Shown: positions 5,131 through 24,142 of the stretch, one piece after another
How the letters are laid out: each line of letters starts with the position of its first letter
Position numbering within the stretch: position 1 is the stretch's first letter
Origin: Arthrobacter yangruifuii
Lineage (GTDB): Bacteria > Actinomycetota > Actinomycetes > Actinomycetales > Micrococcaceae
Direction of reading: 5' to 3'
Assembly (NCBI RefSeq): GCF_009192775.1
Contig: NZ_VTFX01000001.1
Span: forward strand, 434,001 to 498,000
Length of the DNA: 64,000 bases
The notes under the pieces: model-generated
The model's database searches: none
What the model was told of the DNA's origin: nothing
Seen by the model: the letters and a program-made list of their open reading frames with translations, nothing else
Translations under genes and position numbers: made by a program

Positions 5131-5802
5131 TTACGACGACGGGTGGGAACCGCCCAGCAGGCGGTCAAAGGCCTGAGCCGGAGAAGCCAGCTCGGCTCCG
5201 TGCGCAAACAGGATGCGTGCGGCGCCGAGGGCGGCAATACGTTCCAGGGATTCCTCGGCGCGGGCGGCATCTGCGGTGAACATTTCGGGTGGACGGCACA
5301 CCTCGCCGTGGTCCGAAGACGCGGTGTCCCCAAGGAACAGGGTCCCCGTCGGCTCGTGGAACAGGCATACGTGGCCCGCGGTGTGGCCGGGGGTGGAGAG
5401 GATCCCGAGGTCCTGGATGAAAGTTCCTTCTCCGATCGGGGTGATCCGGCGGGGCGCCTGAATGTCGGGCACATCGGGGCCGCCCGCATAGATTGCCGCC
5501 AGCGGAGCCCGCTCGGCGACGGCGAACAGGGATCCGACGTGGTCCTGATGCAGGTGGGTCAGGATAATATCCCGGACGTCGTCGAAGGTTCCCCCGAGCG
5601 CCTGGACCGCGGCGGCAATGCCCGCCTCGGCGTCGGGCATTCCCGTGTCAATGATGACAATGCCGGCGGGCTGGGCCACGGCGAAGCAGCGGACGTCCAG
5701 TGCCAGCGGTTCCGGACCCGCTACGCCGGCCGGAATCACCACTTCCTGGACCGCTTCTTCGACTCCGAGGGGCGCCTCTGCGCTGCCGGCTGATTCACTC
5801 AT
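5131..5802 (-). CDS. MBL-fold metallo-hydrolase
   Basis: This encodes 223 residues from ATG 5802. The AAGGAGG box has 6-nt spacing to this ATG, whereas the ATG at 5808 abuts the box and is unlikely to be used. The metal-binding motif HLHQDH sits at residues 83-88. The downstream ligand motifs GHTAGHVCLF and FLGDTASSD are also present, as is IIDTGMPD near residue 51. The arrangement matches glyoxalase II/lactonase-like hydrolases with two zinc ions. There is no signal peptide, so it is cytosolic. The substrate is not inferable. The gene ends 75 bp before the aldo/keto reductase gene. Confidence 0.9.
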   Translation of the reverse strand: MSESAGSAEAPLGVEEAVQEVVIPAGVAGPEPLALDVRCFAVAQPAGIVIIDTGMPDAEAGIAAAVQALGGTFDDVRDIILTHLHQDHVGSLFAVAERAPLAAIYAGGPDVPDIQAPRRITPIGEGTFIQDLGILSTPGHTAGHVCLFHEPTGTLFLGDTASSDHGEVCRPPEMFTADAARAEESLERIAALGAARILFAHGAELASPAQAFDRLLGGSHPSS

Positions 5803-6148
5803 GGCCATCCTCCTTGTGCCGGGACGCGGCCCTTCCAGGGTATTCCGGCAGCACGGGCTTCGACCCCGCCGAACGCAAAGTCTCCCCCGTCACTGACAGA
5901 TTTTCAGCGACACGGTGGATCCGGGCTTCCCTGCACGGTCCACGGCCGGGGACCCGCTGCCAGGGGCCGTTGCCCCTTGGCACGCCGTCAGAAACGGTAC
6001 TCGATATGCGGACGCGGGCAACGGGTACCTACCCGAATCCAGTTTCATTCTTTCGCGGAGGCGACAAAAATTTCGGTTTTGTTGCCACCCTATGGGGACC
6101 GGTAAACGCAGACATGCTCACGACAATCATTTTTTGGGGATGATTCAC
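5803..6148. promoter_or_regulatory. Leader of paralogue A with possible small ORF
   Basis: This is the divergent intergenic space between the MBL gene and paralogue A. A 45-codon open frame, ATG 6006 to TGA 6143, ends inside the GGGGATGA box that serves paralogue A. It would encode a peptide ending NADMLTTIIFWG and has no convincing ribosome binding site. The stretch 6005-6075 resembles DNA at the same place upstream of paralogue B (a shared CGCG ... GACAAA-ATT core). The coding frames do not stay aligned, so a duplicated regulatory region is more likely than a conserved peptide. Confidence 0.4.
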
Positions 6149-7138
6149 ATGACTCAGGTGCAGACCGTCCACGGAGGACCAACCGGCCGACCAAGCCAAC
6201 AACCCGGCGAGACCATGCTGTGGTCCATGCTGACCATCGCCGCTGATCAGGAGTCCATGCGACAGGACGTCGGAGACAGCATAGTCCGCCATATTGTTGT
6301 CCCGTTGAGCGCGCAGGCGCGGACCTGGGGAGGGTACAGGTTCGGCTTTTCACGGAATCCGGAAGCTGACCAACCTGCCGTGCATCTGCACCTGCGTGCC
6401 ACTAACCACGTCGTCGAACGCGTATGGAGGTTTGCACGCGAGCTGGCCGAGGAGAGCGCTGCCCAGCTCGGGACGCTGCAGTTCTCGGGGTCGACGGACA
6501 TCGTCTATCCATCCCGGCAGGGCGATCCCGTGCCGCAGCTCATGGAAGTGACTCTCGCTCGGTTCGGCGGACCGGAAGGCCTGAAACTCGCGGCTGACAT
6601 TGCCGAGTTGTCCGCGGATCTGTCCATGTGGGCGGTTAACCGCTTTCCCCGCCTCAATACGCGCTCAACTCTGGCTGCACTGCTTCTCTTCGATACTGGC
6701 CATGCGATGATGCGGGGCCCCCGGTCCGCCGGCTGGCCTGACCGCCGGGCCACCAGCTGGGATTATTACTGGAACGCCCACCTGCAGGCCTGCACAAATT
6801 CGGTCAGCCCGCGAGCGGAGCATGCCCGCAGGGCGATGATGGCGCAGATGGCGCCCCGGATTATGCCTGCACACCGGGTCATGGCCGCCCTGGCCTCCGA
6901 GCCTTCGGTGGCTCTCTGGCGCAAGCGCTGGTCACAGGCCGTGGATTTGTATCTGTACCGGGCCTACAAACAACGCGTGAGCCGCCCTGCGCAGCAACTG
7001 ACTATGGCGTCCAGCGGGCTATTGATGAACCGTCTGGGCATCACACCCCGCGAGGAGGCAGCCCTGGGCTTCTTCGCACGCGCCTGGAGCAGGGATTTGG
7101 AAGCGCAGTACACCGGGGAATCGTCGCGGCCGGCATAG
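6149..7138 (+). CDS. Paralogue A: lanthipeptide dehydratase C-terminal-like protein
   Basis: This encodes 329 residues from ATG 6149, 8 nt after GGGGA; an in-frame ATG at 6140 overlaps that box. It is one of four paralogues here. Shared features, in order, are LWSMLTIA, VRHIV.PLS, YRFGFSR, HLHLRAT, YPSRQGDPVPQLME, then RFGGPEGLKLA near residue 140, LLLFDTGHAMMRGPRS, SWDYYWNAHL and a late NRLGITPREEAALG. The RFGG-plus-helix segment and the NRLG...EE tail resemble PF14028 (SpaB_C), the elimination domain of LanB dehydratases and its stand-alone thiopeptide cyclase relatives. No LanB glutamylation domain is nearby. The domain call comes from motifs alone and could be wrong; the gene itself is certain. 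Confidence 0.6.
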   Translation: MTQVQTVHGGPTGRPSQQPGETMLWSMLTIAADQESMRQDVGDSIVRHIVVPLSAQARTWGGYRFGFSRNPEADQPAVHLHLRATNHVVERVWRFARELAEESAAQLGTLQFSGSTDIVYPSRQGDPVPQLMEVTLARFGGPEGLKLAADIAELSADLSMWAVNRFPRLNTRSTLAALLLFDTGHAMMRGPRSAGWPDRRATSWDYYWNAHLQACTNSVSPRAEHARRAMMAQMAPRIMPAHRVMAALASEPSVALWRKRWSQAVDLYLYRAYKQRVSRPAQQLTMASSGLLMNRLGITPREEAALGFFARAWSRDLEAQYTGESSRPA

Positions 7139-7176
7139 ATGAGAGAGTTCCGCCGGTCATGGTGCTCGAGGTGATG

Positions 7177-7629
7177 CTAACCGGTGAAATCCCCGGCCAG
7201 ATGCCGGTTCCGCGTCTCGATCAACCTTTGGAGATAGCGCGCCAACACCAGGTTTTCGACCAGCCGCCCGAGCATCCCGAACGGCGCGTCGAACTCGATC
7301 CGGTCAACCATCGTGGTGCCCTCCGCACCCCCGCTGAACTCATGAATGTGCCGGAACCGCCGGAAGGGTCCAGCGACCTGCTCGTCGACGAAATAGGACG
7401 GTGCAACCATCTCGGTGATCCGGCTCGTCATCCGCAGCGGAACGCCGAAGTGCCAGGCCCGCCAGGTGACTTCCTCTCCCAGGGTAAGAAGACCTGACGT
7501 CACTTCGCCTACCGCCTCTTCACGGGACCGGGCCATCGAGTCCTTGTGGGTATCAACGCTTCGGGCACGGTCAAACAGCTCCTGCGGGGACAGGGCCGTC
7601 CGCGTGGTGCACTCGAAGTAAACGGTCAT
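7177..7629 (-). CDS. SRPBCC family (START-like) protein
   Basis: This 150-residue protein begins MTVYFECTTRTALSPQELFD, typical of polyketide cyclase/dehydrase-like SRPBCC proteins that form a hydrophobic ligand pocket. Other fold features are GEEVTWRAWHFGVPLRMTSR, the PFRRFRHIHEF strand pair, GTTMVDRIEFDAPFG and a C-terminal helix LVLARYLQRLIETRNRHL. Cell-permeability and cyclase roles are both known in the family, and none can be chosen here. It lies tail-to-tail with paralogue A and head-to-head with paralogue B. A decayed copy of the same gene sits upstream of paralogue C, so the SRPBCC gene and the paralogue appear to have been duplicated together. Confidence 0.85.
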   Translation of the reverse strand: MTVYFECTTRTALSPQELFDRARSVDTHKDSMARSREEAVGEVTSGLLTLGEEVTWRAWHFGVPLRMTSRITEMVAPSYFVDEQVAGPFRRFRHIHEFSGGAEGTTMVDRIEFDAPFGMLGRLVENLVLARYLQRLIETRNRHLAGDFTG

Positions 7630-7901
7630 GGACCGAGTATGGCAGTGCCTCCCTGCCCTGCCGGTGCGCTCAGGGAACGCGGCGCCTGGGCAATTTCCGG
7701 ATACGCGTGCATATGGTCCACGTTTCCCACATCGCGACCGCTGATTACTCCACCCATACTTGCTATTCGAACGCCGGAAACACGTACTTGCACCAAAACG
7801 GCCGATTTCCCGCGAACAGGGGGGACAAACATTGCCGTTCCGAGGACACTCGGTTGTCAGCAGTAAAAGTACTTACGGCCGGTACACACCTTGGGGATGA
7901 A
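7630..7901. promoter_or_regulatory. Divergent promoter/leader of SRPBCC gene and paralogue B
   Basis: This 270-bp space resembles the leader of paralogue A around 7765-7840 and ends in the TTGGGGATGA box common to all four paralogues. A CCGGTA element at 7879 recurs in the other leaders at 6099, 13237 and 17030. The gene frame is open back to 7707, but its extra residues do not resemble the other copies. I therefore read it as untranslated. Confidence 0.4.
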
Positions 7902-8918
7902 ATGAGTCGCATGACGGAAGCACGCATTGTCAGCGGAGGATCGGCAGCCAGCCCTGTCCAGCACCAACCCAGCAAAACCGCTCTCTGGGCGATGCTCGCG
8001 ATAGCGCCCGAACCGGACCGCGAGGATGCGGGCGATGAGATAGTCCGCCATATTGTCACCCCGCTTAGTGGCCAGGCGAAGAACTGGGGCGCGTACCGGT
8101 TCGGCTTTTCACGGGGAGCGGAATCGGAAAATTCCGCCATAAACCTGCACCTGCGGGCCACCGACGACGTCGTGCAGCGAGTATGGGCATTTGCCCATGC
8201 GCTGGGGGATGAAAACATTGCCAAACTGGGCACCTTGAAGTTCACCCACTCGCCGAACATCGTTTATCCGCCGCGGCCGGGCGAACCGGTCCCTGAGCTC
8301 GTAGAAGCTTCATTTGCGCGGTTCGGCGGCCCGGAGGGCCTGAAACTGGTGGATGAGGTTTCCGAACTGTCCGCGGATCTGGCCATGTGGGCAGTCAACC
8401 GTTTCCCCGCCGTCAATATGCGCTCAATGCTGGCCACCCTGCTTCTTTTCGACACAGGCCATGCCCTGATGCGGGGACCGAGGTCCTCCCTTTGGCATGA
8501 CCGCAGAAGCACTAGCTGGGACTTTTACTGGACCACTCATCTGCACGGTTGTGCAGCGTCTTTCGGCCCAGGGGCAGAGCAGGCACGAAACACCATGGCG
8601 GACCGTTTGGCACCCCGGATTGTACCCACACACCGGGTCATGGCCGCCGTCGCCTCCGAACCTTCAGTGGATATCTGGCGCAGGCGCTGGACACATGCCA
8701 TTGATCTGTATCTGTACCGGGCAGACAAACAGCGCATCAGTCGCGGTGCACGGCAGTTGGCGATGGGTGTAGGCCGGATGTTACTGAACCGGATAGGTAT
8801 CTCCCTGAAGGAGGAGGCAGTCCTTGGCATCTATGCGCATGCTTGGAGTCAGGATATTGAAGCGCAGCTTACCGGCGAGGCGCACTCTCCGCAGCAGTCA
8901 AAGCCGGGCAGGAAATGA
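7902..8918 (+). CDS. Paralogue B: lanthipeptide dehydratase C-terminal-like protein
   Basis: This encodes 338 residues from ATG 7902, just after TTGGGGATGA; ATG 7911 is an alternative. Motifs shared with paralogue A are LWAMLAIA (28-35), YRFGFSR (65-71), HLRATDDVV (83-91), FARFGGPEGLKL (138-149), LLLFDTGHALMRGPRS (180-195), SWDFYWTTHL (205-214) and LLNRIGISLKEEAVLG (294-309), with a basic tail ending KPGRK. PF14028 members usually carry a two-Arg motif, HxRxR. Here one Arg has become His in HLHLR, so dehydratase-type elimination chemistry is doubtful. It is followed by lsr2. Family assignment is inference; paralogy is seen directly. Confidence 0.6.
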   Translation: MSRMTEARIVSGGSAASPVQHQPSKTALWAMLAIAPEPDREDAGDEIVRHIVTPLSGQAKNWGAYRFGFSRGAESENSAINLHLRATDDVVQRVWAFAHALGDENIAKLGTLKFTHSPNIVYPPRPGEPVPELVEASFARFGGPEGLKLVDEVSELSADLAMWAVNRFPAVNMRSMLATLLLFDTGHALMRGPRSSLWHDRRSTSWDFYWTTHLHGCAASFGPGAEQARNTMADRLAPRIVPTHRVMAAVASEPSVDIWRRRWTHAIDLYLYRADKQRISRGARQLAMGVGRMLLNRIGISLKEEAVLGIYAHAWSQDIEAQLTGEAHSPQQSKPGRK

Positions 8919-9009
8919 CTGCTTAGACCGCAGACCCGCAACCAGATAAATCGCAGGCACCTTCCCCCAGCAATGGATCTTTCCCCAGCAAAATGATTAG
9001 GCGGCGAAC

Positions 9010-9342
9010 ATGTCACGACACGTACAGGTACACCTCATTGACGACATCACCGGCGAGGAGGCCCAGGAAACCATCACCTTTGGCCTTGACGGCAATACAT
9101 ACGAAATTGATCTCGCCGAGGAGAACGCCCGCCAGCTGCGTGAACACCTCAGCCCCTACCTGGATAAGGGACGCAAGGTGGGCGGCCGGGCAAGGCCACG
9201 GGCACAACAGCGGCCCTCAACCTCGAACCGGGAAGAGACCCACCGCATCCGAGAGTGGGCCGAAGCGAACGGGTATTCGACCAGCAGCCGGGGCCGGATC
9301 AGCAAGGCCGTCCTCGAGGCCTACCAGGCGGCGAACTCCTAG
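9010..9342 (+). CDS. lsr2: Lsr2 nucleoid-associated protein
   Basis: This 110-residue protein has the two Lsr2 domains: an N-terminal dimerisation domain (VQVHLIDDITGEEAQETITF, then the DGNTYEIDLAEENARQLRE beta-alpha segment) and a C-terminal DNA-binding domain with IREWAEANGYSTSSRGRISK. The AT-hook-like RGR is at residues 94-96. Lsr2 is the actinobacterial H-NS analogue that bridges AT-rich DNA and silences acquired genes. The linker (residues 55-75) is basic and Gln/Pro-rich. It sits between paralogues B and C in an accessory region, 91 bp after paralogue B, and ends in a strong terminator. Arthrobacter-type genomes often carry more than one lsr2, so this may be an accessory copy. Confidence 0.95.
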   Translation: MSRHVQVHLIDDITGEEAQETITFGLDGNTYEIDLAEENARQLREHLSPYLDKGRKVGGRARPRAQQRPSTSNREETHRIREWAEANGYSTSSRGRISKAVLEAYQAANS

Positions 9343-9357
9343 GCATCGGATTCAGGC

Positions 9358-9388
9358 GGAAGCGGGAACCGTGGCGGTTCCCGCTTCC
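9358..9388 (+). terminator. Intrinsic terminator after lsr2
   Basis: A perfect 14-bp stem (GGAAGCGGGAACCG at 9358-9371 with its complement at 9375-9388) closes a 3-nt TGG loop and is followed by GTTGCTT. It lies 16 bp after the lsr2 stop codon. Confidence 0.85.
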
Positions 9389-9484
9389 GTTGCTTAATCA
9401 GCGGTACTGATGTTGCCGCCGGGGTGCAGGAATGAAACGGTAGGGAGCGGCATCGAAAAAAGGTGCGGCCTAAGGACGGGCTCC

Positions 9485-10054
9485 ATGGAACTTGATGATC
9501 TGCTGGCGGCGCTGAATGCGCGAGAGACGATTCCCGCGGGTTCCTCCCTGCATAAAGCGATGCACAACGCCAGCCAGGCTGCCCTGCGGATTACCGGTGA
9601 GCTAAATTCCGGCTACCACGATCCGGCGCAGGTGCGGGAGCTGCTGTCCCGGCTGATCGGCAAACCGGTGGATGAAACCGTGGCGTTGTTCCCGCCGTTC
9701 TCCGCTGATTTCGGCAGGAACATCACGCTGGGCAAACGGGTTTTCATCAACTCCGGCTGCCGGTTCCAGGATCAGGGCGGCATCAGCATCGGCGATGGCT
9801 GCCTGATCGGCCACAACGCCGTACTGGCAACCCTGAACCATGATGTGGCGCCCGGCCGCCGGGCCGACCTGCACCCGGCGCCCATCACGATCGGCCGGAA
9901 CGTGTGGCTCGGATCCAACGTCACCGTGCTTCCGGGGATCAGCATCGGTGACGATTCCGTGGTGGCGGCCGGAGCCGTGGTGACCCGGGACATTCCGCCG
10001 CGGTCCCTGGCTGTCGGAGCGCCCGCCAAGGTGATCCGTTCCCTGGAGGGATGA
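9485..10054 (+). CDS. Maltose/galactoside O-acetyltransferase-like (LbH) enzyme
   Basis: This 189-residue protein starts at ATG 9485, after AAGGACGGG. An N-terminal helical cap (about 1-60) resembles the maltose acetyltransferase domain. It is followed by left-handed beta-helix hexapeptide repeats: GRNITLGKRVFINSGCRFQD, ISIGDGCLIGHNAVLATLNH, ITIGRNVWLGSNVTVLPG and ISIGDDSVVAAGAVVTRDIP, ending VGAPAKVIRSL. His in ATLNHDV is the expected catalytic base. The family transfers acetyl from acetyl-CoA to sugar hydroxyls. It appears monocistronic; the acceptor is unknown. Confidence 0.9.
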   Translation: MELDDLLAALNARETIPAGSSLHKAMHNASQAALRITGELNSGYHDPAQVRELLSRLIGKPVDETVALFPPFSADFGRNITLGKRVFINSGCRFQDQGGISIGDGCLIGHNAVLATLNHDVAPGRRADLHPAPITIGRNVWLGSNVTVLPGISIGDDSVVAAGAVVTRDIPPRSLAVGAPAKVIRSLEG

Positions 10055-10089
10055 GCGGCACCTTATGGGGGAAATGCCAGGCACATGTC

Positions 10090-10311
10090 TTAGAAGGTTC
10101 CGTCATAGGTTTCGCGGATGGCCAGGGCAGTAAAGCGCCAGCCATCAACAATTTCAGGCAGGTGGAGTACTGCATGACCCATACCCTCAGCATTGGCCCG
10201 TGCGATTTCCGCTTCCATATATTCGCTCATCTGCTCCGCGTAACGGATCAGGCCCCGTATCTGATCTGCCTTGAGGCGGGGCGGCTCCGGCGGCACTGGG
10301 AATGAGGTCAT
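10090..10311 (-). CDS. Small hypothetical protein
   Basis: This 73-residue frame starts at ATG 10311 and begins MTSFPVPPEPPRLKADQIRG. The middle is a likely amphipathic helix (LIRYAEQMSEYMEAEIARAN), followed by GHAVLHLPEIVDGWRFTALA. There are no membrane segments, and I do not recognise the family. No ribosome binding site is evident, but an AT-rich TGTAAA lies 7 nt upstream, compatible with a leaderless transcript. The roughly 250 bp upstream (10312-10565) shows no further gene. Confidence 0.55.
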   Translation of the reverse strand: MTSFPVPPEPPRLKADQIRGLIRYAEQMSEYMEAEIARANAEGMGHAVLHLPEIVDGWRFTALAIRETYDGTF

Positions 10312-10565
10312 ACGCAGTTTTACACTGAACAACCTAGAAAAGCGCGACGCCGCCGACCGCTGACGGGTGCGCCTGAGCGGCAATACAGAAGGTGCAGGGC
10401 GGCCGACGACGGCGGTGCGGGTCCTCTTCGAATGCTCGAAACCGAACCCCGCGATCGTGAAGGACGGCCCGGTGGGTGGTGAGACCCTGAACCGGCGCAC
10501 CCTTCTCCCGGGTGCACGGTCAGTGAGTGAGCCCATTCCTCCTCGCTACAGGCCCGGGCGGCAGC

Positions 10566-11282
10566 TTAGAAGACGCGTTCGGCCACGTTCACGCGGGTGG
10601 CCGACGCCAGTGCGGACCGGACCTTCTCCGTGGAGGTTGTGCCGGGAGCCGAGCTCATCAGCTGGTCATCGGGTGTGCTGGGATCCGCGAGGTAGAGGCG
10701 GGTGTAGCCCGCGGATTCCGGCTCGAACCGCCAGCTTTCGGCGACGGTACCGGCGTCCACGGCGTCGTACCCCAACGCATCAAGGAGTGACGCCGCCTCA
10801 GCCTTGGCCGCGCCGTCATCGGAGGCGATGGGCAGTGCGGAGCGGTCCGCGGCGCCGCCGGGGCGGGCGAGAAGCGGAAGGTGGTGGGCGAGGATGTTAT
10901 TGAACGCCTTGACGTACTGCGCCCCGGGAAGCCAGCTCTGCACCAGCTCGCTGGTGGTGACGGCGCTGTTATCGAGGGCGGTGATGCGCCCGTCCCTGGA
11001 CGGGTAGTAATTGCTGGTGTCCAGGACGATTTTGCCGGCCAGCAGTCCGTCCGGAAGATCGGAAACCGCCTTGAGCGGAATGGACAGCACGACGGCGTCA
11101 CCGGCCTTCGCGGCGTCTTCCACCGTTCCGGCCGTGGCCAACGGCCCGAGCTCGGCAACCAGGTCCGAGAGGGTTTCCGGTCCCCGCGAGTTGGCGATAA
11201 CGACGTTCATGCCCGCGGCAACCGCCAGCCGGGCGACGGCCGATCCGATGTTTCCGCTTCCGATGATTCCCAATGTTGGCAT
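10566..11282 (-). CDS. NADPH-dependent F420 reductase-like dinucleotide-binding protein
   Basis: This encodes 238 residues from ATG 11282, 6 nt after AAGGAA. The N-terminus is a Rossmann fold, MPTLGIIGSGNIGSAVARLA, followed by VIANSRGPETLSDLVAELG, VVLSIPLKAV and IVLDTSNYYPSRDG. The middle AFNNILAHHL and LPIASDDGAAKAEAASLLDALGYDAVDAG match the Fno/YrpG-like family of NADP:F420 oxidoreductases and their F420-independent relatives. Whether it uses F420 is undetermined. It follows the FAD monooxygenase gene on the same strand, 137 bp apart with a hairpin between, so cotranscription is uncertain. Confidence 0.83.
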   Translation of the reverse strand: MPTLGIIGSGNIGSAVARLAVAAGMNVVIANSRGPETLSDLVAELGPLATAGTVEDAAKAGDAVVLSIPLKAVSDLPDGLLAGKIVLDTSNYYPSRDGRITALDNSAVTTSELVQSWLPGAQYVKAFNNILAHHLPLLARPGGAADRSALPIASDDGAAKAEAASLLDALGYDAVDAGTVAESWRFEPESAGYTRLYLADPSTPDDQLMSSAPGTTSTEKVRSALASATRVNVAERVF

Positions 11283-11341
11283 TGCATGTTCCTTAGATAG
11301 TGTTCGGCTGGAGTGACCGCGGTGTCCTGCGTCTGTCCCTA

Positions 11342-11358
11342 GGGGAGGAAACCTCCCC
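11342..11358. repeat. Short perfect inverted repeat
   Basis: GGGGAGG (11342-11348) and CCTCCCC (11352-11358) flank AAA in the 137-bp gap between the FAD monooxygenase stop and the start of the next gene. No T-run follows on either strand, so it could be a weak terminator or an operator. Confidence 0.5.
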
Positions 11359-11419
11359 GGCTGTACAGGAATTCCCCAGGCGTCGAGGCCCCTGCGGGTG
11401 CTTCCGTCCGATGGAAGTG

Positions 11420-12460
11420 CTAGGCGAACCGTGCCCCGGCGGACATTGCGAGGTTTCGGGCTCCGGTGAAATGCTCGGCCGTGCCGACACGGTTCAGCAG
11501 CCGCGCCGCGCGGACCATGAGGTTTCCCCGCCGACGCCGGCCGGCGTCGTAGCGTTGTAGGCCGGCGGCAACGTCGGGAGCCGAGGTGAGTGCGTCGACC
11601 AGGGCAACCGCGTCCAAAAGTGCTTCGCAGGCGCCGCGGCCAAGGTTCGGTGCCATACCGTGCGCAGCGTCGCCCACCAGCGCCAGGTTGTCGGAGATGT
11701 AGGACGGGAGCGGCGGAATGTCGAACAATTCCCGGTAATCTATCGGACTTCCGTCCAGTTTCCCCAGGACCCGGATGACGTCCCGATGCCACCCGCGGTA
11801 GAGGCTGCGTAGCAGGTCTGCTCCCTGGACGCGGATAGCCTCCGGGGACCCCAGCGCGGGAAGGTCCGTGGAACGGAGGCAGGCAAACCAGTTAGTGCTA
11901 CCGGCATCGAGCGGCGTAATGCCGAACAGGCGGCCGCGCCCCCACGACTCGCTGACTCCGCCGGCCGGACCGGATACAACGCCGCGAAAGGCGACGGTTC
12001 CAAGCGCCCGAGGCGATATTCCGTTGCAGGCGGTGCGCAGGCGGCTGAAGATTCCGTCGGCGGCCACGACAACATCGGCAGGGGGCAGGGCCGCGGGCCC
12101 TGCGACCGGCGAATCCCATCGGATAACCCCGGCAGGAAAGTCCCCGGCCAGCGCCTCGAGCAGGACGGTGCGTGAAACCAGGCGGGCGGTCCGGCTGCCG
12201 CCCATGGCTGCGATCTGGCTGCCGTCAGGCCTCAGGATCCGTGCGCCCTGCTCAACCACCGAACCGGCGCGGACTGCGTCACCGGCGCCCAATGCGTCGA
12301 GGGCCCGCATCGCCTCGGGCCACATGGCCAGCGCCGTTCCGCTGCCGGGCAGGTTTGCGCTCCGTTCGAGCACCTGGACCGACCATCCTGCGCGGAGCAG
12401 CCCCCGCGCAACGGCGGATCCCGCGATACCCGCTCCGACGACCAAGGCTGAACCGTGCAT
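11420..12460 (-). CDS. FAD-dependent monooxygenase (PHBH fold)
   Basis: This 346-residue group A flavoprotein hydroxylase begins MHGSALVVGAGIAGSAVARG with the GxGxxG FAD motif at about residues 8-13. The DG-type motif is VVVAADGIFSRLR (about 132-144). The GD motif is NLALVGDAAHGMAPNLGRGA (about 260-279), which binds the ribityl chain. Full length is somewhat short for the family and there is no thioredoxin-like C-terminal domain. No membrane anchor is seen. Such enzymes hydroxylate aromatics or oxidise polyketides and antibiotics; the substrate is not inferable. The start is supported by GGAGAGG shortly upstream. Confidence 0.88.
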   Translation of the reverse strand: MHGSALVVGAGIAGSAVARGLLRAGWSVQVLERSANLPGSGTALAMWPEAMRALDALGAGDAVRAGSVVEQGARILRPDGSQIAAMGGSRTARLVSRTVLLEALAGDFPAGVIRWDSPVAGPAALPPADVVVAADGIFSRLRTACNGISPRALGTVAFRGVVSGPAGGVSESWGRGRLFGITPLDAGSTNWFACLRSTDLPALGSPEAIRVQGADLLRSLYRGWHRDVIRVLGKLDGSPIDYRELFDIPPLPSYISDNLALVGDAAHGMAPNLGRGACEALLDAVALVDALTSAPDVAAGLQRYDAGRRRRGNLMVRAARLLNRVGTAEHFTGARNLAMSAGARFA

Positions 12461-12644
12461 AGCCTCTCCTCTTCAAGGGTCCGGTTCCGTCCGGCTCGGG
12501 ACGTCAGTAGCTGGAGTCTACGCGGTTTGCCGTCTGCGATTGGGAGCCCGCTGTGACGCCGAAATTTCCGTAGGGCTAGACGTCCTCTGGGTGGTCATTG
12601 CCGCGGGATCTTAGGCATGGCTGATAAAGGCTAGCCCCGGCTTG

Positions 12645-12906
12645 TCAGCCGATGGGCTCCGCCATCTGCTCGACAACGTACTGGAGGTCCAGGGCCGCTC
12701 CCGTTACCGGGTCCGCCATTTCAAACCTTCCAGCTGCGCGCGAACTGGTCCACACCGCTCGTCATCGCGACCGTTCCGGAGATCAGCACCGTTCCCGGAG
12801 TGTTTAGGCCCCGTTCGGTCAGGATATCCAGCCAGTAATCAGGGGTCAGCAGAGCGCCCAGCGAGCTGTCCTGGATGAGGGTGTCCGGCAGGTCGCCCTG
12901 GCCTAC
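12645..12906 (-). pseudogene. C-terminal relic of a FAH/DUF2848-like gene
   Basis: Reading leftward from an in-frame stop at 12907-12909, the frame gives GQGDLPDTLIQDSSLGALLT, then TPGTVLISGTVAMTSGVDQF, then ARSWKV and a stop. Shifting frame by one base at that point continues as EMADPVTGAALDLQYVVEQM and ends at 12645. The combined sequence resembles the C-terminus of DUF2848/fumarylacetoacetate-hydrolase-like proteins, which end in a GT...F...W.VE..DP pattern. The N-terminal two thirds are missing and there is a frameshift, so this is a dead fragment. The family label is moderately secure. Confidence 0.5.
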
Positions 12907-13008
12907 TTAGAACAGGCGGTCGGCTGCCGATCCTGCCACAGTGCGGCTCTTGCCCCGCACAGCCGGCGGGCAATGTGAGTGTGGGGAAAGCTGAGACACG
13001 GCGGCCTG

Positions 13009-13086
13009 AGTGACGTCTTCACCCAGCGAGATGAGGCCCGACCTACCGCCGCCGACCGCTTCTTCGCGGGAACGCGCCATCGAGTC
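13009..13086 (-). pseudogene. Decayed copy of the SRPBCC gene
   Basis: Translated leftward from 13086 this reads DSMARSREEAVGGGRSGLIS followed by LGEDVT. The intact SRPBCC gene at 7177-7629 reads DSMARSREEAVGEVTSGLLT followed by LGEEVT. Upstream of this block the frame has a TAG, and downstream the similarity fades before a TAA at 12907. Only the middle of the gene survives. It lies upstream of paralogue C exactly as the intact gene lies upstream of paralogue B, showing that the pair was duplicated as a unit. Confidence 0.75.
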
Positions 13087-13229
13087 CTATTGCAGGCCGT
13101 TTCTGCAGTCGGCGCGTGGTGACGATGCGAAGACGGTGTGGAGTCGGGGCAGTGCGCGTCGCTGGTTCGCGAAACCCATAGTCGCTCTGCGTGCGCAGGA
13201 AAAGAGCCGCTGACATAAATGGGAAATTT

Positions 13230-13327
13230 CTGAGAGCCGGTATGGACATTCACATTTTGGCTACACAGTGTTGGGAACACGCTGTCGAGGTCAAGAAATC
13301 GTTTTTGGGGATGAAAAGAGCCGTGGA
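13230..13327 (+). promoter_or_regulatory. Leader of paralogue C, homologous to that of D
   Basis: GCCGGTATGGACATTCACAT at 13236-13255 matches GCCGGTATGGACATGCACGT before paralogue D, and both run on to a TTGGGGATGA box (13305-13314 here). The reading frames of the two leaders differ by small indels, so conservation is at the DNA level. A promoter or regulatory RNA role is an inference. Confidence 0.45.
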
Positions 13328-14326
13328 ATGCAATCGAACATTGTTAATCGAGGAACAGCTGCCCGTCCTGTGCAGCAGCATGCCAGCACCACAGCCCTGT
13401 GGTCCGTCCTGAGCATAGAGCCGGAGCGCAGGGATGCAGGTGACGACATAATCCGCCACATTGCGGGCCCGCTGTCTTCCCAATTGCGGGTCGGAGAGGG
13501 GGGCCGGTTCCGGTTTTCACGCAACCTGGAATCCGCCCATCCGGCCGTAGTCCTGCATTTGCTTGCCACCGACGACGTCGTTAAGCGCCTATGGAAGTTT
13601 GCGCACGCGCTGGCGGACGAAAGCGCTGCCACACTGGGCCCCGTGAAGATCTCCCAGGCGCCGGACATCATTTATCCACCACGGCCGGGCGAACCGGTAC
13701 CTGAGGTGGTGGAAGCGGGGCTTGCCCGGTTCGGTGGGCCAAAGGGCTTGGAACTGGCTTCCGGGATTTCCGAGGTGTCCTCGGACCTGGCCTTGTGGGC
13801 CGTCAACCGCTTTCCCAGCCTCAACACGCGCTCGATGCTGGCTGCCCTGCTTCTCTACGACGCCGGCCACGCCATGATGCGCGGACCCCGGTCCGCTGTT
13901 TGGCCCGACCGCAGAACCACTAGCTGGGACTTCTACTGGAACGCTCATCTGCACGCCTGCACAGGATCTTTTGGCGCGCAGTCGGAGCATGCGCGCAGGG
14001 CAGCGATGGCGCAGATGGCACCGCGGGTTATGCCCGCGCACAGGGTGATGGCCGCCCTTGCCGCGGAGTCGGCAGTGGATGTCTGGCGGAAGCGCTGGGC
14101 AAGGACCGTCGATGAATATTTGTACCGGGCAGACAAGCAACGCATCAGTCGCAGTGCGCAGCAGCTGGCTACGGGGGCCAGCCAGCTGGCACTGAAACAG
14201 CTGGGCTTCCCGCTCCGGGAACAGGGGGCACTCGGGATCTACGCGCGTGCTTGGAGTAAGGATATTGAAGCGAAGTATTCCGGTGAGGAGAGCTCGTCGC
14301 AGCCGTCGAAGCCGGGTAGGAAATGA
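13328..14326 (+). CDS. Paralogue C: lanthipeptide dehydratase C-terminal-like protein
   Basis: This encodes 332 residues from ATG 13328 (MQSNIVNRGTAARPVQQHAS). Copy D has an ATG four codons earlier; here that codon is AAG, leaving the GGGGATGA box unusually far (about 16 nt) from the first in-frame ATG. A longer form from GTG 13268 is possible. Motifs are LWSVLSIEPERRDAGDDIIR, FRFSRNLES, LHLLATDDVV, LARFGGPKGLELA, LLLYDAGHAMMRGPRS, SWDFYWNAHLHAC and LKQLGFPLREQGALG. Compared with A and B, the Arg of HLR is replaced by Leu, so both PF14028 Arg positions are lost. Closest copy is D. Confidence 0.6.
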   Translation: MQSNIVNRGTAARPVQQHASTTALWSVLSIEPERRDAGDDIIRHIAGPLSSQLRVGEGGRFRFSRNLESAHPAVVLHLLATDDVVKRLWKFAHALADESAATLGPVKISQAPDIIYPPRPGEPVPEVVEAGLARFGGPKGLELASGISEVSSDLALWAVNRFPSLNTRSMLAALLLYDAGHAMMRGPRSAVWPDRRTTSWDFYWNAHLHACTGSFGAQSEHARRAAMAQMAPRVMPAHRVMAALAAESAVDVWRKRWARTVDEYLYRADKQRISRSAQQLATGASQLALKQLGFPLREQGALGIYARAWSKDIEAKYSGEESSSQPSKPGRK

Positions 14327-14380
14327 CGGTGTAGGCGGCACACGCCAGGGGCCACCGCTTATGCTCGGGACCACAATTTC

Positions 14381-15142
14381 CTAGAACTGGATCCCCCGGG
14401 AGAGGGCGCCGTCCGCCAGGACGTTCGCTCCGGTCATCCGGGAGGCGCGCGGGCTGGAGACGAACACAACGACGTCGGCCACCTCCTGCGCGCTGCCCAT
14501 CCGCCCGGTGGGATTCAGCGCCATGGACGAGGCGAACATCTCCGGACTGTTCCGTTCCATGCTCTGCCAGACGCCGCCGTCGTGATAGGTGTTGCCCGGC
14601 GACACCGTGTTCGCGCGGATCCCTGTCCCGGCCAACTGGAAGGCCAGCCCTGCCATATAGGCGATCAGCGCGGACTTGACCGTTGCGTACGGGCCGGACG
14701 CGAAATCCACCTCCCGGCCGGAGACGCTGGAAATGGCCACCAGCGACGGAGACTCGCTGCGCCCAACATGCGGGACCGCCGCCTGCATCAGGCGTACGGT
14801 GCCCATCAGGTCTACCCGCAGGCACGCCTCCCACGATTCGGCACTGTCGTCGATGGCCAGGGCGCTGACGTTGCTGACCACCGCGTCCAATCCGCCGAAG
14901 CGTCCGGCGACGGCATCCACCCAGGCGGCCACGGCATCGCCGTCGCCCACGTCCAGGACGGCGCCTTCCACCTTGACCCCGGTGCCGGCCAACGCCGTTT
15001 CGGTGGCGGTGATTTCCGCCGCGTCCCGGGCACAGAAGGCCACGTTGGCCCCTTCCGCGGCGAACGCTTCCACGATGGCCCTCCCGATTCCGCGGGTTCC
15101 TCCGGTGACCAGCGCCGTCTTGCCGTTCAACTGCAGATCCAT
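14381..15142 (-). CDS. SDR family oxidoreductase
   Basis: This 253-residue classical short-chain dehydrogenase starts at ATG 15142 after GGAGG. It has the TGGTRGIG nucleotide motif near residue 14, CARD at the coenzyme-specificity strand (an Arg there suggests NADPH), VSNVSALA in place of the usual NNAG, a catalytic Ser in ISSVSG, and Tyr/Lys in YATVKSAL. It ends in the usual ADGALSRGIQF. The substrate cannot be inferred. It is 28 bp downstream of the acetamidase gene on the same strand and the two are probably cotranscribed. Confidence 0.9.
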   Translation of the reverse strand: MDLQLNGKTALVTGGTRGIGRAIVEAFAAEGANVAFCARDAAEITATETALAGTGVKVEGAVLDVGDGDAVAAWVDAVAGRFGGLDAVVSNVSALAIDDSAESWEACLRVDLMGTVRLMQAAVPHVGRSESPSLVAISSVSGREVDFASGPYATVKSALIAYMAGLAFQLAGTGIRANTVSPGNTYHDGGVWQSMERNSPEMFASSMALNPTGRMGSAQEVADVVVFVSSPRASRMTGANVLADGALSRGIQF

Positions 15143-15170
15143 GATTCCTCCGGGGTCGGGTTGTCGGGTC

Positions 15171-16172
15171 TTAGGGAAGTTCTTCGCTACGCCGGCGCAG
15201 GTCGGCGTGCAGCCCGTCGTAGGCTGCGGCCTGCGGGAACAGGGCCTTGCGGGCCTTGACCACCACGGAGTAATTGGCATCCACGGCGTTGGCGATCGGG
15301 GCCTGCGCTGTCTGGGTGAGCAGTTGGTAGGCGTCCATCTGGTGCAGGCCGAAGAGCTCCCCGAACCAGCGCACCATCTCCACCTGGCCGATGCGCCAGG
15401 AATCCTCCATGGGCCGGGACGAGCCGACGGCCATCCACTCGGTATCGGTTTCGAGCCTCGGCCAGGCGGGGGCGCCGCCCTTGACCAGTTCCACCAGGAT
15501 CGTGGAATGCATGGCCCCTTCCACGGCGGTGCCGCAGGCTTCACCTTCGCCCTGGCGGTAGTGGCCGTCGCCGATGGAGAACAGTGCGCCCGGCTGGTTC
15601 ACGCCGAGGTACACGGTGGTTCCGGCCTTCACCTCCGGGGCGTCCATGTTTCCGCCGAAGCGTTCGGGGACCAGGGAGGAGCGGACCTCCCCGCCGGGAG
15701 GAGCCACCCCGACCGTCCCCAGCATGGGTTCCAGCGGCAGGGCGACCTCAAAGTCCCCGAACCGCGCCTGGAAACCGACGGTGGAGCGGGCGGAGTCCAC
15801 CTGATAGATCCAGGTGGTATCCGGCAACGGATCCTGCAGGAAAGCGGTGCGGTCGGTGCTGGTGAGCCCGCCGAAGAACGGGATGGTGGCGGAGGCGCCG
15901 TAGCTTCGCGCCGGGGTCAGCTCCACTATGTGCAGGGCGAGTGTATCGCCGGGTTCGGCACCTTCAACGTAGAACGGCCCGGTCTGCGGGTTGACGAAGT
16001 TGAGGTCGACCTTCTCACTGGACAGGTCCTCGACCGAAGTCAGCGCGTTGTTGAACGCGTCCTCCGACCAGAGCTTCAATGCGGTCCCCGGCCGGACCGT
16101 CATCACGGGTTCAGCCCCGCCGAAGGTGTACACCAGCTGGTCCGGATGCGGGCGGTACTCAAGGATTTCCAT
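15171..16172 (-). CDS. Acetamidase/formamidase family protein
   Basis: This 333-residue protein of the FmdA/AmdA family hydrolyses short-chain amides to acid and ammonia. Supporting segments are MEILEYRPHPDQLVYTFGGA, NPQTGPFYVEGAEPGDTLAL with HIVEL, FGGNMDAPEVKAGTTVYLGV and ALFSIGDGHYRQGEGEACGT with AVEG, the core of the fold. It is cytosolic and full length. It sits upstream of the SDR gene and downstream of a MOSC gene, all leftward. The linkage of amidase and SDR may reflect one degradation route, but this is speculative. Confidence 0.88.
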   Translation of the reverse strand: MEILEYRPHPDQLVYTFGGAEPVMTVRPGTALKLWSEDAFNNALTSVEDLSSEKVDLNFVNPQTGPFYVEGAEPGDTLALHIVELTPARSYGASATIPFFGGLTSTDRTAFLQDPLPDTTWIYQVDSARSTVGFQARFGDFEVALPLEPMLGTVGVAPPGGEVRSSLVPERFGGNMDAPEVKAGTTVYLGVNQPGALFSIGDGHYRQGEGEACGTAVEGAMHSTILVELVKGGAPAWPRLETDTEWMAVGSSRPMEDSWRIGQVEMVRWFGELFGLHQMDAYQLLTQTAQAPIANAVDANYSVVVKARKALFPQAAAYDGLHADLRRRSEELP

Positions 16173-16304
16173 GGGGCCGGATGCTATCGAAGGTTTCCGG
16201 TTCTGGATATACGCGGTGTCGGACCTACGTCGCCGGGGACTCCTCGTCGCTCAGTCCGGAGGAGCCGTGCAGTACAGGGGGGACGCCGGCGGCGGCCGCG
16301 AGTG

Positions 16305-16868
16305 TCAGACGCACTTCAGCCGGCTCTGCGGCCCGGCCGGAACCTCGACACGGATCTCATCGCTGATGCTCACCATCCCGCCGCTCAGTACGATGCCCAT
16401 GACGCCCGTCTTGCGCACGACTTTTCCGGCGCCGTCGCGGGGCAGTACCGCTTTGAGTAGTCCGGTTTGGAATCGGTCGATCTGCCGGCAGGGATTCCGC
16501 AGGCCGGTTACCTGAACGACGGCGTCGGGTCCGATACGCAGGAGTGTTCCCTCGGGCAGGTTCAGGAGGTCAATGCCGCGGGTGGTGATGTTTTCGCCCA
16601 GATCGGCGGGGTGCAGTTCGAAGCCGTCCTGTGCCAGTTCGTCGAACAGCTCCGCATGGATCAGGTGCACCTGCCGCAGGTTGGGCTCCGTGGGATGGGA
16701 CCGCTTTCGAAACACATGCTGCACAGTGGTGCCGGAATGAGCGTCTCCCTCAACGCCCAGCCCTTCCACCAGCAGAACCGATTCCATCCGGGCCTTGCTG
16801 AAGTTGTGCTTGCTGCTCCGGCTGACCGAGACCACTGCCGGTCCTGGGGGATTCCATCTGACGGCCAT
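16305..16868 (-). CDS. MOSC domain-containing protein
   Basis: This 187-residue protein is a stand-alone MOSC domain (related to the molybdenum cofactor sulfurase C-terminus). Key segments are VSVSRSSKHNFSKA, the LGVEGDAHSG loop, VHLIHAELFDEL, HPADLGENITTRGIDLLNLP and TGLRNPCRQIDRF, whose Cys is the invariant residue proposed to carry sulfur or bind the cofactor. Such proteins often act in molybdoenzyme-linked reduction of N-hydroxylated compounds. A xanthine dehydrogenase lies 40 kb away in this window, but no link is shown. The start at ATG 16868 lacks a strong ribosome binding site. Confidence 0.85.
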   Translation of the reverse strand: MAVRWNPPGPAVVSVSRSSKHNFSKARMESVLLVEGLGVEGDAHSGTTVQHVFRKRSHPTEPNLRQVHLIHAELFDELAQDGFELHPADLGENITTRGIDLLNLPEGTLLRIGPDAVVQVTGLRNPCRQIDRFQTGLLKAVLPRDGAGKVVRKTGVMGIVLSGGMVSISDEIRVEVPAGPQSRLKCV

Positions 16869-17029
16869 GGACGGATCATTTCATATCCCGCCACGGCCTG
16901 CGGGAAGCCCCCGAAGCACGCCCACCGTGACGGGAAGTCGATTTTTCCGAACTCGACCTACACCTTGTGCCGACCGGCATTCGGTGCGCGCCGGCTCAAG
17001 AGGACACGAACAGGTAATGATTTCGGGGG

Positions 17030-17103
17030 CCGGTATGGACATGCACGTTCTGGGAACACAGGGTAAAGACAGTACACGTACTAATGTCAATCTTGGGGAT
17101 GAA
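17030..17103 (+). promoter_or_regulatory. Leader of paralogue D
   Basis: This 74-bp stretch begins with CCGGTATGGACATGCACGT, matching the leader of paralogue C, and ends with TTGGGGATGA before ATG 17104. The gene frame is open through this region and back to 16795. A longer N-terminus starting at ATG 17036 (MDMHVLGTQG) is therefore possible but is not conserved in frame in the other copies. Confidence 0.45.
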
Positions 17104-18102
17104 ATGAGCCGCGTAATGCAATCGAACACTGTTTATCGAGGTGCAGCTACCCGACCTGTGAAGCAGCACCTCAGCACAACCCTGTGGTCCATCCTGACTA
17201 TTGAGCCGGAGCGTAAGGATGCCGGCGACGACATTATCCGCCATGTTGTTGCCCCTTTGTCTTCCCAACTGCGGGTCGGGGAGGGGGGCCGGTTTCGGTT
17301 GTCACGCAGCCTGGAATCCGACCGTCGGGCCGTGCTCCTGCATTTGCTTGCCACCGACGACGTGGCTACGCGTCTATGGAAGTTTGCGCACGCGTTGGCG
17401 GACGAAAACGTTGCCACGCTGGGTGCCGTGAAGATCTCCCACTCGCCGGGACTCGTTTATCCACCACGGCCGGGCGAAGCGGTACCTGAGGTGGTGGAAT
17501 CGGCTCTTGCACGGTTCGGTGGGACAAAGGGCTTGGACCTGGTAACTGAGGTTGGCGAGGTCTCCATGGATCTGACCCTGTGGGCGGTCAACCGCTTCCC
17601 CAGCCTCAACACGCGCTCGATGTTGGCCGCCCTGCTTCTCTTCGACGCCGGCCACGCGATGATGCGGGGCCCCCGGTCCGCTGTGTGGCCCGACTGCAGA
17701 ACCACTAGCTGGGACTTCTTCTGGAACGCTCATCTGCACGCCTGCACAGGTTCTTTTGGCCCGCACGCTGCGCAAGCGCGCAGGGCAATGAGGACCCGGA
17801 TTGCACCCCGGGTTATGCCCGCACATCGGGTGATGGCCGCTCTTGCCTCAGAGCCGGCAGTGGATGTCTGGCGGAAGCGGTGGGCGAGGGCCATGGATGA
17901 GTATTTGTACCGGGCAGACAAACACCGAGTCAGCCGCAGTGCGCAGCAGCTGGCTATGGAGGCTAGCCAGCACGCACTCTACGGGCTGGGCTTCGCGCTC
18001 AGGGAGCAGGCGACCCTTGGCCTATACGCGCGTGCCTGGAGTAAGGAAATTGAAGCGCAGTATTCCGGTGAGGAGCATTCGTTGCAGCCGTCAAAACGGT
18101 AA
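17104..18102 (+). CDS. Paralogue D: lanthipeptide dehydratase C-terminal-like protein
   Basis: This encodes 332 residues from ATG 17104 (MSRVMQSNTVYRGAATRPVK), immediately after the shared TTGGGGATGA box. It aligns end to end with paralogue C: LWSILTIEPERKDAGDDIIR, FRLSRSLESD, LHLLATDDVATRLWKFAHAL, LARFGGTKGLDL, LLLFDAGHAMMRGPRS, SWDFFWNAHLHACTGSFG, DVWRKRWARAMDEYLYRADK and LYGLGFALREQATLG. The late NRLG of copy A has degenerated to YGLG. Downstream DNA also matches that after copy C (ACGGTG.AGGCGGCACA). Function is unknown; the PF14028 relation is motif-based. Confidence 0.6.
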   Translation: MSRVMQSNTVYRGAATRPVKQHLSTTLWSILTIEPERKDAGDDIIRHVVAPLSSQLRVGEGGRFRLSRSLESDRRAVLLHLLATDDVATRLWKFAHALADENVATLGAVKISHSPGLVYPPRPGEAVPEVVESALARFGGTKGLDLVTEVGEVSMDLTLWAVNRFPSLNTRSMLAALLLFDAGHAMMRGPRSAVWPDCRTTSWDFFWNAHLHACTGSFGPHAAQARRAMRTRIAPRVMPAHRVMAALASEPAVDVWRKRWARAMDEYLYRADKHRVSRSAQQLAMEASQHALYGLGFALREQATLGLYARAWSKEIEAQYSGEEHSLQPSKR

Positions 18103-18218
18103 GAAACAACGGTGCAGGCGGCACAGTGCCGGATCGGAGCGGAGGATGGCACTCCTTGCTGGCAGCACGGGCTTCCACTCCTCGAGGGGCCAACTCTTTC
18201 CCCCCGGAACACTTCCTT

Positions 18219-18461
18219 CTACATGGGATCTCCCAACGATCTCGGGTGCGGGTCCGGGTTCTTCCACCCGCCCCGGTGCGTCATGGACGGCTCGACTGGT
18301 TCCGGTGCCTCCCGCACGACAATCAGGATCGTGGCAATGGGGCCCAACAGGAGGGATAACAGGAACCAGATCCAGCGGGAGCGGTTCTTCTGCTCGGCCA
18401 AGCCGGCATTGATCAGCGCCACCATGAACCAGAAGGTCCCGGAACTTATGTAATCGTCCAT
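18219..18461 (-). CDS. Small membrane protein, hypothetical
   Basis: This 80-residue frame starts at ATG 18461 after AGGTGGG. It begins MDDYISSGTFWFMVALINAG, then LAEQKNRSRWIWFLLSLLLG, then PIATILIVV and a polar proline-rich tail. Two short membrane segments (about 8-21 and 30-49) separated by a basic loop suggest a hairpin in the membrane with the tail in the cytoplasm. The pattern resembles phospholipase_D-nuclease_N-like small membrane proteins, but I cannot assign a family. No operon partner is evident. Confidence 0.6.
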   Translation of the reverse strand: MDDYISSGTFWFMVALINAGLAEQKNRSRWIWFLLSLLLGPIATILIVVREAPEPVEPSMTHRGGWKNPDPHPRSLGDPM

Positions 18462-18609
18462 TGACCCACCTAACCACAAGCCGCAATACGCGCGGGCGCG
18501 GCCAGACCGGTGTCGGCTGTGCATGAATGAGCATCTCTGTCCCACGGGCGCCGCCACGAGAGGCGCGAAACTGAATCCCGTTGATACGGGTCATTCTGCA
18601 GTAGCTGCA

Positions 18610-23835: not shown

Positions 23836-24142
23836 GTGGGGGTTCCTTCTGTTGCTCGCAGCGGGACTAGGGCTCTCCCGGACTGTGGTTCTTATATGCA
23901 GCAACCGTGAGGGGGGTAACGGATATTCCACCAGGTTCGCGACGTCACATCCGTCTGGCGCTTCGCTGGCGGATTATAGTGCTCCGTCACTCCCAGGTAG
24001 CAAAAGACAACACCGCTAACCATGCAAGGACGTCCCCACAGGCTGAGCCATTCCGCAAGGATCGCAGCCTTCCAGATGCCCCCATGTGATTGAGTCAGCT
24101 GGCCTCATAGACGCTTCGATAGCTCTTTCTTTTTGTGCAAAA
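23836..24142. other. Noncoding spacer before the defence-like cassette
   Basis: About 307 bp with no supported gene. It holds the Old Yellow Enzyme promoter on its left side and shows an imperfect dyad around 23949-23976 (ATCCG ... CGGAT). Composition changes to AT-richer DNA toward the right, marking the edge of the ATPase/PIN cassette. No direct repeat, integrase or tRNA fragment was seen at this edge. Confidence 0.5.

Follow-up and report, generated by a model that had tools for sequence, protein, structure and literature searches.

Four paralogous genes, A to D, lie within a window of 64,000 nucleotides from Arthrobacter yangruifuii (RefSeq assembly GCF_009192775.1, contig NZ_VTFX01000001.1, positions 434,001 to 498,000), and their products belong to the PF14028 family (Lant_dehydr_C), an assignment that sequence comparison indicates to be right. 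Our best reading, held with somewhat better than even confidence, is that an elimination domain became domesticated and that A–D are non-canonical paralogues of it put to a new use, with a function that we infer. What the sequences themselves display is the kinship with this family, the absence of the usual partner enzymes, a conserved gene module around another copy of the family (core334), and a presumed canonical site that A–D have lost. Within the family, A–D form part of a derived accessory clade, are among its most derived members and have no module neighbours. All four are orphan proteins of the PF14028 type:

6149..7138, + strand: paralogue A, 329 residues; unmatched by Pfam itself; groups with B, C and D in a starred clade of 29 rows
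7902..8918, + strand: paralogue B, 338 residues; the sole copy among A–D above the Pfam cut-off
13328..14326, + strand: paralogue C, 332 residues; Pfam score of 20.6 bits, below the cut-off
17104..18102, + strand: paralogue D, 332 residues; 78% identical to C

Family Membership and Predicted Fold

As stated in the preliminary description, which was made from the sequence alone, the four open reading frames (ORFs) can be aligned end to end (340 columns, with B, C and D 61%, 62% and 58% identical to A), and they constitute the main DNA-level repeat family of positions 5500–18600 of the window. The motifs listed there as shared are so only in part: RFGG occurs in all four proteins, while FDxGHA is changed to YDAGHA in C and SWDxYW to SWDFFW in D; in place of the NRxG found late in A and B, C has KQLG and D has YGLG. 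The arginine of HLR is indeed present in A and B, and C and D have leucine instead (HLL); when the family is aligned, however, this residue lies two positions past the presumed NisB R786, which is itself His in all four proteins. The count of four copies is correct for the window, but the genome total is six, with two copies outside it that were found by genome search:

G000:C1:334057-334983, outside the window: core334, fifth family copy, about 100 kb from A–D
G000:C1:295368-296285, outside the window: core295, sixth family copy

The proposed kinship with PF14028 was upheld by the profile search (cut-off 24.4 bits) for only one of the four window copies, with B scoring 26.2 bits, C falling short at 20.6 bits, and A and D giving no match; the two copies outside the window are strong matches, with scores of 67.2 and 72.5 bits. 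An NCBIfam scan of A–D yielded nothing meaningful. The structure comparison suggested at that time, carried out on a predicted model of B, agrees with the assignment, since the first 11 Foldseek rows are of the LanB/TbtD family and the VIA-align list is headed by NisB, MibB and MadB (213–249 residues). In this model, the elimination-domain fold spans most of the length, and it also fits the TbtD type. That A–D resemble LanB merely in fold, without descending from it, is, thus, extremely improbable, considering also the relatives with graded PF14028 scores of up to 128.7 bits and the starred branches of the tree.

Distribution and Origin

For comparison, 148 related genomes (29 of this genus), 14 control genomes and 394 genomes of the class were used. 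PF14028-type proteins are present in 41 of the 148 relatives, including all 29 genomes of the genus, which hold between 1 and 7 family matches each, fragments included; the search with A–D drew in four named loci, all from Arthrobacter. From 143 hits, 84 were retained after removal of those with fewer than 200 aligned residues and of contained duplicates. Alignment and tree comprise 81 of these rows, leaving out one broken-copy fragment and two pieces truncated at locus ends, which are duplicates and are still counted among the 45 accessory rows (43 distinct).

In the tree, eight cluster-linked rows stand alone on one side of a branch with 100/100 support, the outgroup rooting being our choice and these rows being long-branched. 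The other side holds the core334 rows of several genera, those of Arthrobacter, the core295-type (4 rows; joined to the next group with only 87/76 support) and an accessory clade of 43 rows (support 100/100), which contains A–D.

Near relatives in the Micrococcaceae, with 114.1 and 128.7 bits, are found in G033 and G050, inside clusters that combine a LanB N-domain protein and an M50-like protein with a pair of nitroreductase-type dehydrogenases, one of them scoring below the cut-off, and a protein that by eye is ThiF-like; several ORFs of these clusters are rich in Ser/Cys and look like precursors. The five class-level matches of family f35 (289–305 bits) and the one in G111 (77 bits) adjoin homologues of the same cluster proteins. 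The nearest outside relatives of the orphan family are, by these gene contents, split LanBs in azole-peptide-type clusters, and the sequences show the A–D family as the sister group of the stand-alone half that eliminates glutamate in a split LanB dehydratase, descent from this half being the simplest explanation; the domain as found in Micrococcaceae stands apart from any biosynthetic cluster. The split-LanB clusters of the azole-peptide type lie at L047, L048 and L121–L125, several of them with two or more short ORFs that are rich in Ser/Cys and precursor-like.

The split-LanB layout is known from the goadsporin cluster, in which glutamylation is carried out by GodF and elimination putatively by GodG (PMC5303826; here and below, PMC sources are cited from partial text), and it is shared by the clusters of the G033/G050 type. 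GodG and its SapT counterpart SptBb resemble A–D in that the elimination domain resides on a separate polypeptide (PMC5303826, PMC9011353). They differ from A–D in that their clusters include a glutamylation partner and a precursor (PMC5303826, PMC9011353), neither of which was found at A–D, and in that A–D lack both presumed pocket arginines.

Presumed Active Site and Selective Constraint

Neither glutamate elimination nor thiopeptide cycloaddition is deducible for A–D from the family name, because they are devoid of the canonical lyase-site residues. At the presumed equivalents of NisB positions 784/786/826/961, A has H/H/R/G, B N/H/R/R, C V/H/R/Q and D L/H/R/Q; that is, the pocket arginines at 784 and 786 and the histidine at 961 are missing, with Arg kept only at 826. 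The eight cluster-linked rows (G033, G050, G111 and the five f35 genomes), although the nearest relatives, are unlike A–D and invariably show R/R/K/H. Histidine at 961 is found in all eight of these rows, nearly throughout the module rows (25/26) and in 4/4 core295-type rows, as opposed to 1/43 accessory rows. At 786, R or K predominates in the module (24 of 26 rows) and His in the accessory clade (33 of 43 rows, including A–D), where 826 is Arg in 32 rows. That the accessory rows have these new residues in common suggests that they acquired a new function and did not simply decay. In NisB, the H961A exchange abolishes dehydration and R784A slightly lowers it, with R786 and R826 also being named (PMC4341554).

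Selective constraint was estimated from the ratio of non-synonymous to synonymous substitution rates (dN/dS) against orthologues, which is 0.23–0.36 for C and D, 0.026–0.040 for core334 and 0.061 for core295, whereby the values of C and D are inflated by small divergence, which explains part of the contrast with core334; A gives 0.21 against its relative in G013 at large divergence. Between genomes G000 and G015, dS amounts to 0.091 in C and 0.133 in D, compared with 0.610 in core334, and the neighbourhood of A–D is a mosaic of low-dS and high-dS genes. Low dS of C and D together with this mosaic suggests exchange between species. Within positions 1–24000 of the window, the genes at 15171–16172 and 22756–23931 have dS values of about 0.14–0.25 to other species and other neighbours 0.5–1.0, pointing to frequent recombination in this region.

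These data also bear on the view that A–D are dispensable tandem or segmental duplicates, weakly constrained, spread by recombination and heading to decay. The mosaic neighbourhood, the 1 to 7 matches per genome of the genus and the dN/dS values of 0.23–0.36 would all be in line with it; however, the four window copies are all intact and conserved end to end, dN/dS remains under 1, and the common new states at 786 and 826 would not be expected from random decay, so that we regard it as unlikely.

Partner Enzymes and Comparison with Known Systems

The glutamylation partner (LanB N-domain, PF04738), reported as missing in the preliminary description, is indeed absent by Pfam search from all 29 genomes of the genus; it was found in 5 other genomes of the 148 and in none of the 14 controls, so that the negative rests on these five positive relatives. 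A LanN alignment (a profile built from two related LanB-N proteins) gave 0/29 as well, with no positive control. YcaO and LanC were each found in 0/29 genomes of the genus by searches that were positive in 5 and 1 of the 14 controls, respectively. A thiopeptide or lanthipeptide cluster at A–D was rejected, since PF04738, YcaO and LanC were not found in the 29 genomes. The thiopeptide pyridine synthases of the TbtD type are alike in fold but differ in context, with YcaO and LanB-N lacking (0/29 each) in the genus of A–D. Additional stand-alone elimination-domain proteins in class I lanthipeptide clusters, for which non-elimination chemistry is considered by the authors (PMC7268733), lie in LanC-containing clusters, unlike the situation in this genus.

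As to a precursor, the tiny-ORF criterion described below identified none at any of A–D, other precursor types being without systematic search; conserved peptides from the translated upstream regions were considered and rejected, as the frames are not common to A–D (by eye). The statement that no clear precursor exists consequently stands for A–D by this criterion, but not for the family, given that the proposed survey of neighbourhoods for small peptides revealed a tiny W-x-W ORF upstream of core334.

It has to be considered whether A–D might be active tailoring enzymes of an unlinked ribosomally synthesized and post-translationally modified peptide (RiPP), either glutamyl lyases whose base is altered, like that of SptBb, or cycloaddition enzymes resembling TbtD. 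SptBb lacks the catalytic histidine and yet works in a heterologous host, keeping the pair of arginines by which the carboxylate of the glutamyl group is bound (PMC9011353). The predicted fold, which is the same as in NisB-C and TbtD, the one copy of four passing the PF14028 cut-off and dN/dS values well under 1 would likewise be compatible with activity. A–D, in contrast to SptBb, have replaced both presumed glutamyl-pocket arginines; with glutamylation domain, YcaO and LanC not found in the 29 genomes and no precursor-like tiny ORF at A–D by the criterion applied, we consider such activity quite improbable.

The core334 Module

By its sequence and gene context, core334 is the conserved, ancestral-type copy, and it is part of a module consisting of a LuxR-type regulator, a tiny W-x-W ORF, the orphan domain itself and a protein of 63 residues:

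L014:8610-9758: LuxR-type regulator of core334, matching GerE and other helix-turn-helix (HTH) models
L014:9934-9957 (G000:C1 about 333933-333956, outside the window): tiny ORF MKSWDWF, seven codons, preceded by a strong ribosome-binding-site-like sequence
L014:11036-11224: gene for a protein of 62–64 residues, less than about 100 nt downstream of core334, motif LGCS...YLRDAAWAxxLW

A regulator match of at least 200 bits is present in 40 of the 41 family-holding genomes and in none of the 107 others, the nearest miss being G135 with 196.5 bits. In 34 of the 40 genomes, the regulator is divergent from core334 at a distance of about 0.5–0.8 kb, and in five (G001, G007, G011, G014, G021) it is 8.8–11.7 kb away; the genes in these gaps were rejected as a cluster, appearing by eye to be a sugar-metabolism operon. 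In G050, the regulator follows the cluster copy downstream in the same orientation, and this placement beside an elimination-domain copy, as in the orphan module, ties the module to the cluster type. Pfam detected no TPR family in the core334 regulator at E-values up to 0.01; its LuxR-type C-terminus is evident from Pfam, while a "TrmB-like" N-terminus is an impression only.

The 63-residue gene occurs in 38 of the 41 family-holding genomes and in 0/107 others, with a single match per genome; in three g8 genomes, only the C-terminal half is matched (27–33 bits). Its dN/dS of 0.07–0.12 (three pairs) indicates a real gene. A Pfam scan of five members gave nothing above cut-off, and the protein has the look of a small winged helix, judged by eye only.

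A tiny ORF of the W-x-W type precedes core334 in all 39 orphan-core genomes (the 41 family-holding genomes minus G033 and G050), its stop lying 76–154 nt before core334. The tip is W-x-W in 38 of them and Y-D-W in G036, and the residue between the tryptophans is D or E in 38/39, with G in G032. Applying a criterion that includes a ribosome-binding-site-like sequence before the ORF, it was found for 26 of 27 module rows (the sole miss is the broken-copy fragment, whose genome otherwise passes), for 0/45 accessory, 0/4 core295-type and 0/8 cluster-linked rows, and for 4 of 385 other genes, one of these four being a true module. Within the genus, the length is 7 residues in 12 genomes and 8–17 in 17 (MKKATAPVSIKSWEWF, MTKVWDWI). 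In four of five other genera, the tiny ORF starts like a signal peptide, as judged visually and from a rough count of hydrophobic residues, and carries W-D-W or W-G-W terminally or close to its end; the W-D-W unit is repeated twice in G059, four times in G053 and six times in G080. The repeat number can differ within one genus (L054 of G053, four; L193 of G080, six), as in multi-copy pheromone or RiPP precursors, to which the ORFs may be likened.

Such repeats and export-like starts favour a peptide product over a mere translational leader. The leader reading, according to which the W-x-W ORF is a tryptophan attenuator or arrest peptide, is kept alive by a hairpin that follows the stop codon, is conserved and rich in G+C and shows compensatory changes at the base, and by the fact that the ORF has just 7 residues, two of them encoded by Trp codons, in 12 of the 39 genomes. 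On the other hand, a leader would need neither the longer signal-peptide-like ORFs (by eye) of 4/5 other genera nor 2, 4 or 6 W-D-W repeats; a T run after the hairpin is absent in 15 of 16 aligned sequences, Rfam gave no match in the three loci searched, and related regulators elsewhere are paired with Trp-tipped ORFs, as set out in the next section. We rate the leader as a minority possibility, rather doubtful on this balance.

In two genomes of the genus (L066 of G005 and L157 of G014), core334 is broken, with regulator, tiny ORF and 63-residue gene still in place. An operator-like motif of the core334 leader was also sought in the window and rejected there: four matches with up to two mismatches were obtained (mean expectation 1.1; at least four matches in 2 of 100 shuffles), none within 5.5–18.6 kb.

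Possible Regulator–Peptide Pairs in Actinobacteria

Regulators of the core334 class occur in 145 of the 394 class genomes at an E-value of 1e-25 or better. A small secreted-looking ORF with a C-terminal tryptophan, divergent beside the regulator, was scored for 10 of 28 such genes versus 22 of 664 control genes, the controls stemming from different genomes than the regulators, mostly Micrococcaceae, and being unmatched in composition; three of the 22 positive controls are members of the module. The 28 exclude L174, which is too short, and L161, which has no match of sufficient length. About seven of the ten positives are convincing by eye (L159, L164 and the second gene of L169 are doubtful), and four convincing Trp-tipped ORFs were missed by the script (L161, L176, L179, L186; by eye). 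Ends of such ORFs include DSSWGGR (L172) and DSLWD (L169). The pairs of the L159–L186 type possibly represent an actinobacterial peptide-signalling family, and the pairing of peptide and regulator may predate its association with the LanB domain.

The core334 locus, as distinct from A–D, is reminiscent of the RRNPP-type pairs of peptide pheromone and cytoplasmic receptor, in which a small, often exported-looking peptide adjoins an intracellular HTH regulator (PMC10075063). It differs from these in that the regulator is LuxR-type without a TPR match and the LanB-C protein is a fixed extra part, a comparison that concerns the genes only.

Proposed Role of A–D

For core334, we propose that the protein would bind or modify the W-(D/E)-W peptide within a peptide-controlled circuit; its old glutamate pocket might perhaps read the acidic residue between the tryptophans, a guess from chemistry. 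More weakly, A–D would keep the fold and not the lyase chemistry, acting as peptide- or ligand-binding paralogues, i.e., as modulators or decoys, or, alternatively, as enzymes with a new site built on His 786 and Arg 826. A non-lyase, probably ligand- or peptide-binding role of A–D, which would then be neither glutamyl lyases nor pyridine synthases, is put forward with moderate confidence only.

Several points weigh against repurposing as outlined here. The model of B is middling (mean predicted local distance difference test, pLDDT, of 66; predicted template-modelling score, pTM, of 0.64; Foldseek TM-scores of 0.42–0.47). NisB itself was not aligned, its equivalent positions being assigned by motif, through MibB for R-x-R and Y-G-G, and the position that we take to be H961 was set through a presumed H-x-x-x-N-R motif. 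The module cores of G032 and G062 carry Gln at 961, whereas the core295-type copies retain the histidine yet have no module parts, and by analogy to SptBb, loss of this histidine would be no proof of lost lyase activity. The regulator has weak matches, for the most part restricted to its HTH, in 147 of 148 genomes, and the co-occurrence counts of the module are non-independent, with 29 of the 41 genomes belonging to one genus. Besides the effect of small divergence on the C and D ratios, the relaxed constraint on A–D also fits decay, and their link to the tiny peptide would run through core334 homology only.

A wider reading, which we hold only tentatively and think rather less than probable, would see in the Actinobacteria a signalling family in which a Trp-tipped peptide is read by a LuxR-type regulator; the Micrococcaceae circuit would have gained the elimination domain and the 63-residue protein, and A–D, variable and horizontally exchanged, would tune or decoy the signal between strains. 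The retired elimination domain would in that case read or trim the acidic residue of the W-x-W tip.

If repurposing of the elimination domain is true, a RiPP enzyme domain has left natural-product synthesis and become fixed elsewhere, with a graded record of active-site change. With the core334 module, a short and concrete peptide is available for testing, and, judging from the related regulators, peptide–regulator pairs may be widespread in Actinobacteria, where quorum sensing has been called under-explored (PMC4748050). Furthermore, a family name derived from thiopeptide and lantibiotic biosynthesis can mislead for genes of the A–D type. The preliminary notion of an unusual, RiPP-like or non-RiPP system was a fair guess, with the derived status of A–D and the core334 module lying beyond it. 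The domain family is already known; its orphan, genus-wide and expanding form with a tiny-peptide module was not encountered in the literature, where partly narrow searches returned, among the matches listed, nothing on orphan PF14028 proteins outside RiPP clusters, the W-x-W peptide or the regulator–peptide pair, which is weak evidence of absence.

Surroundings of A–D

Alongside A–D, there is no core334-type regulator, no 63-residue gene and no W-x-W ORF. Upstream of C and D, a two-copy DNA repeat family (D10) is found, and similar stretches are present in part of the C/D-type loci:

13236..13271, + strand: element of 36 nt upstream of C, 83% match with that of D
17029..17064, + strand: element upstream of D, matching that of C

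The Pfam-scanned neighbours of A–D comprise Lsr2, polyketide-cyclase-like, MOSC, formamidase and saccharopine-dehydrogenase-like proteins, along with two proteins that had no match. The gene of the Lsr2-type nucleoid protein (PF11774, PF23359; window positions 9010–9342) lies directly downstream of B.

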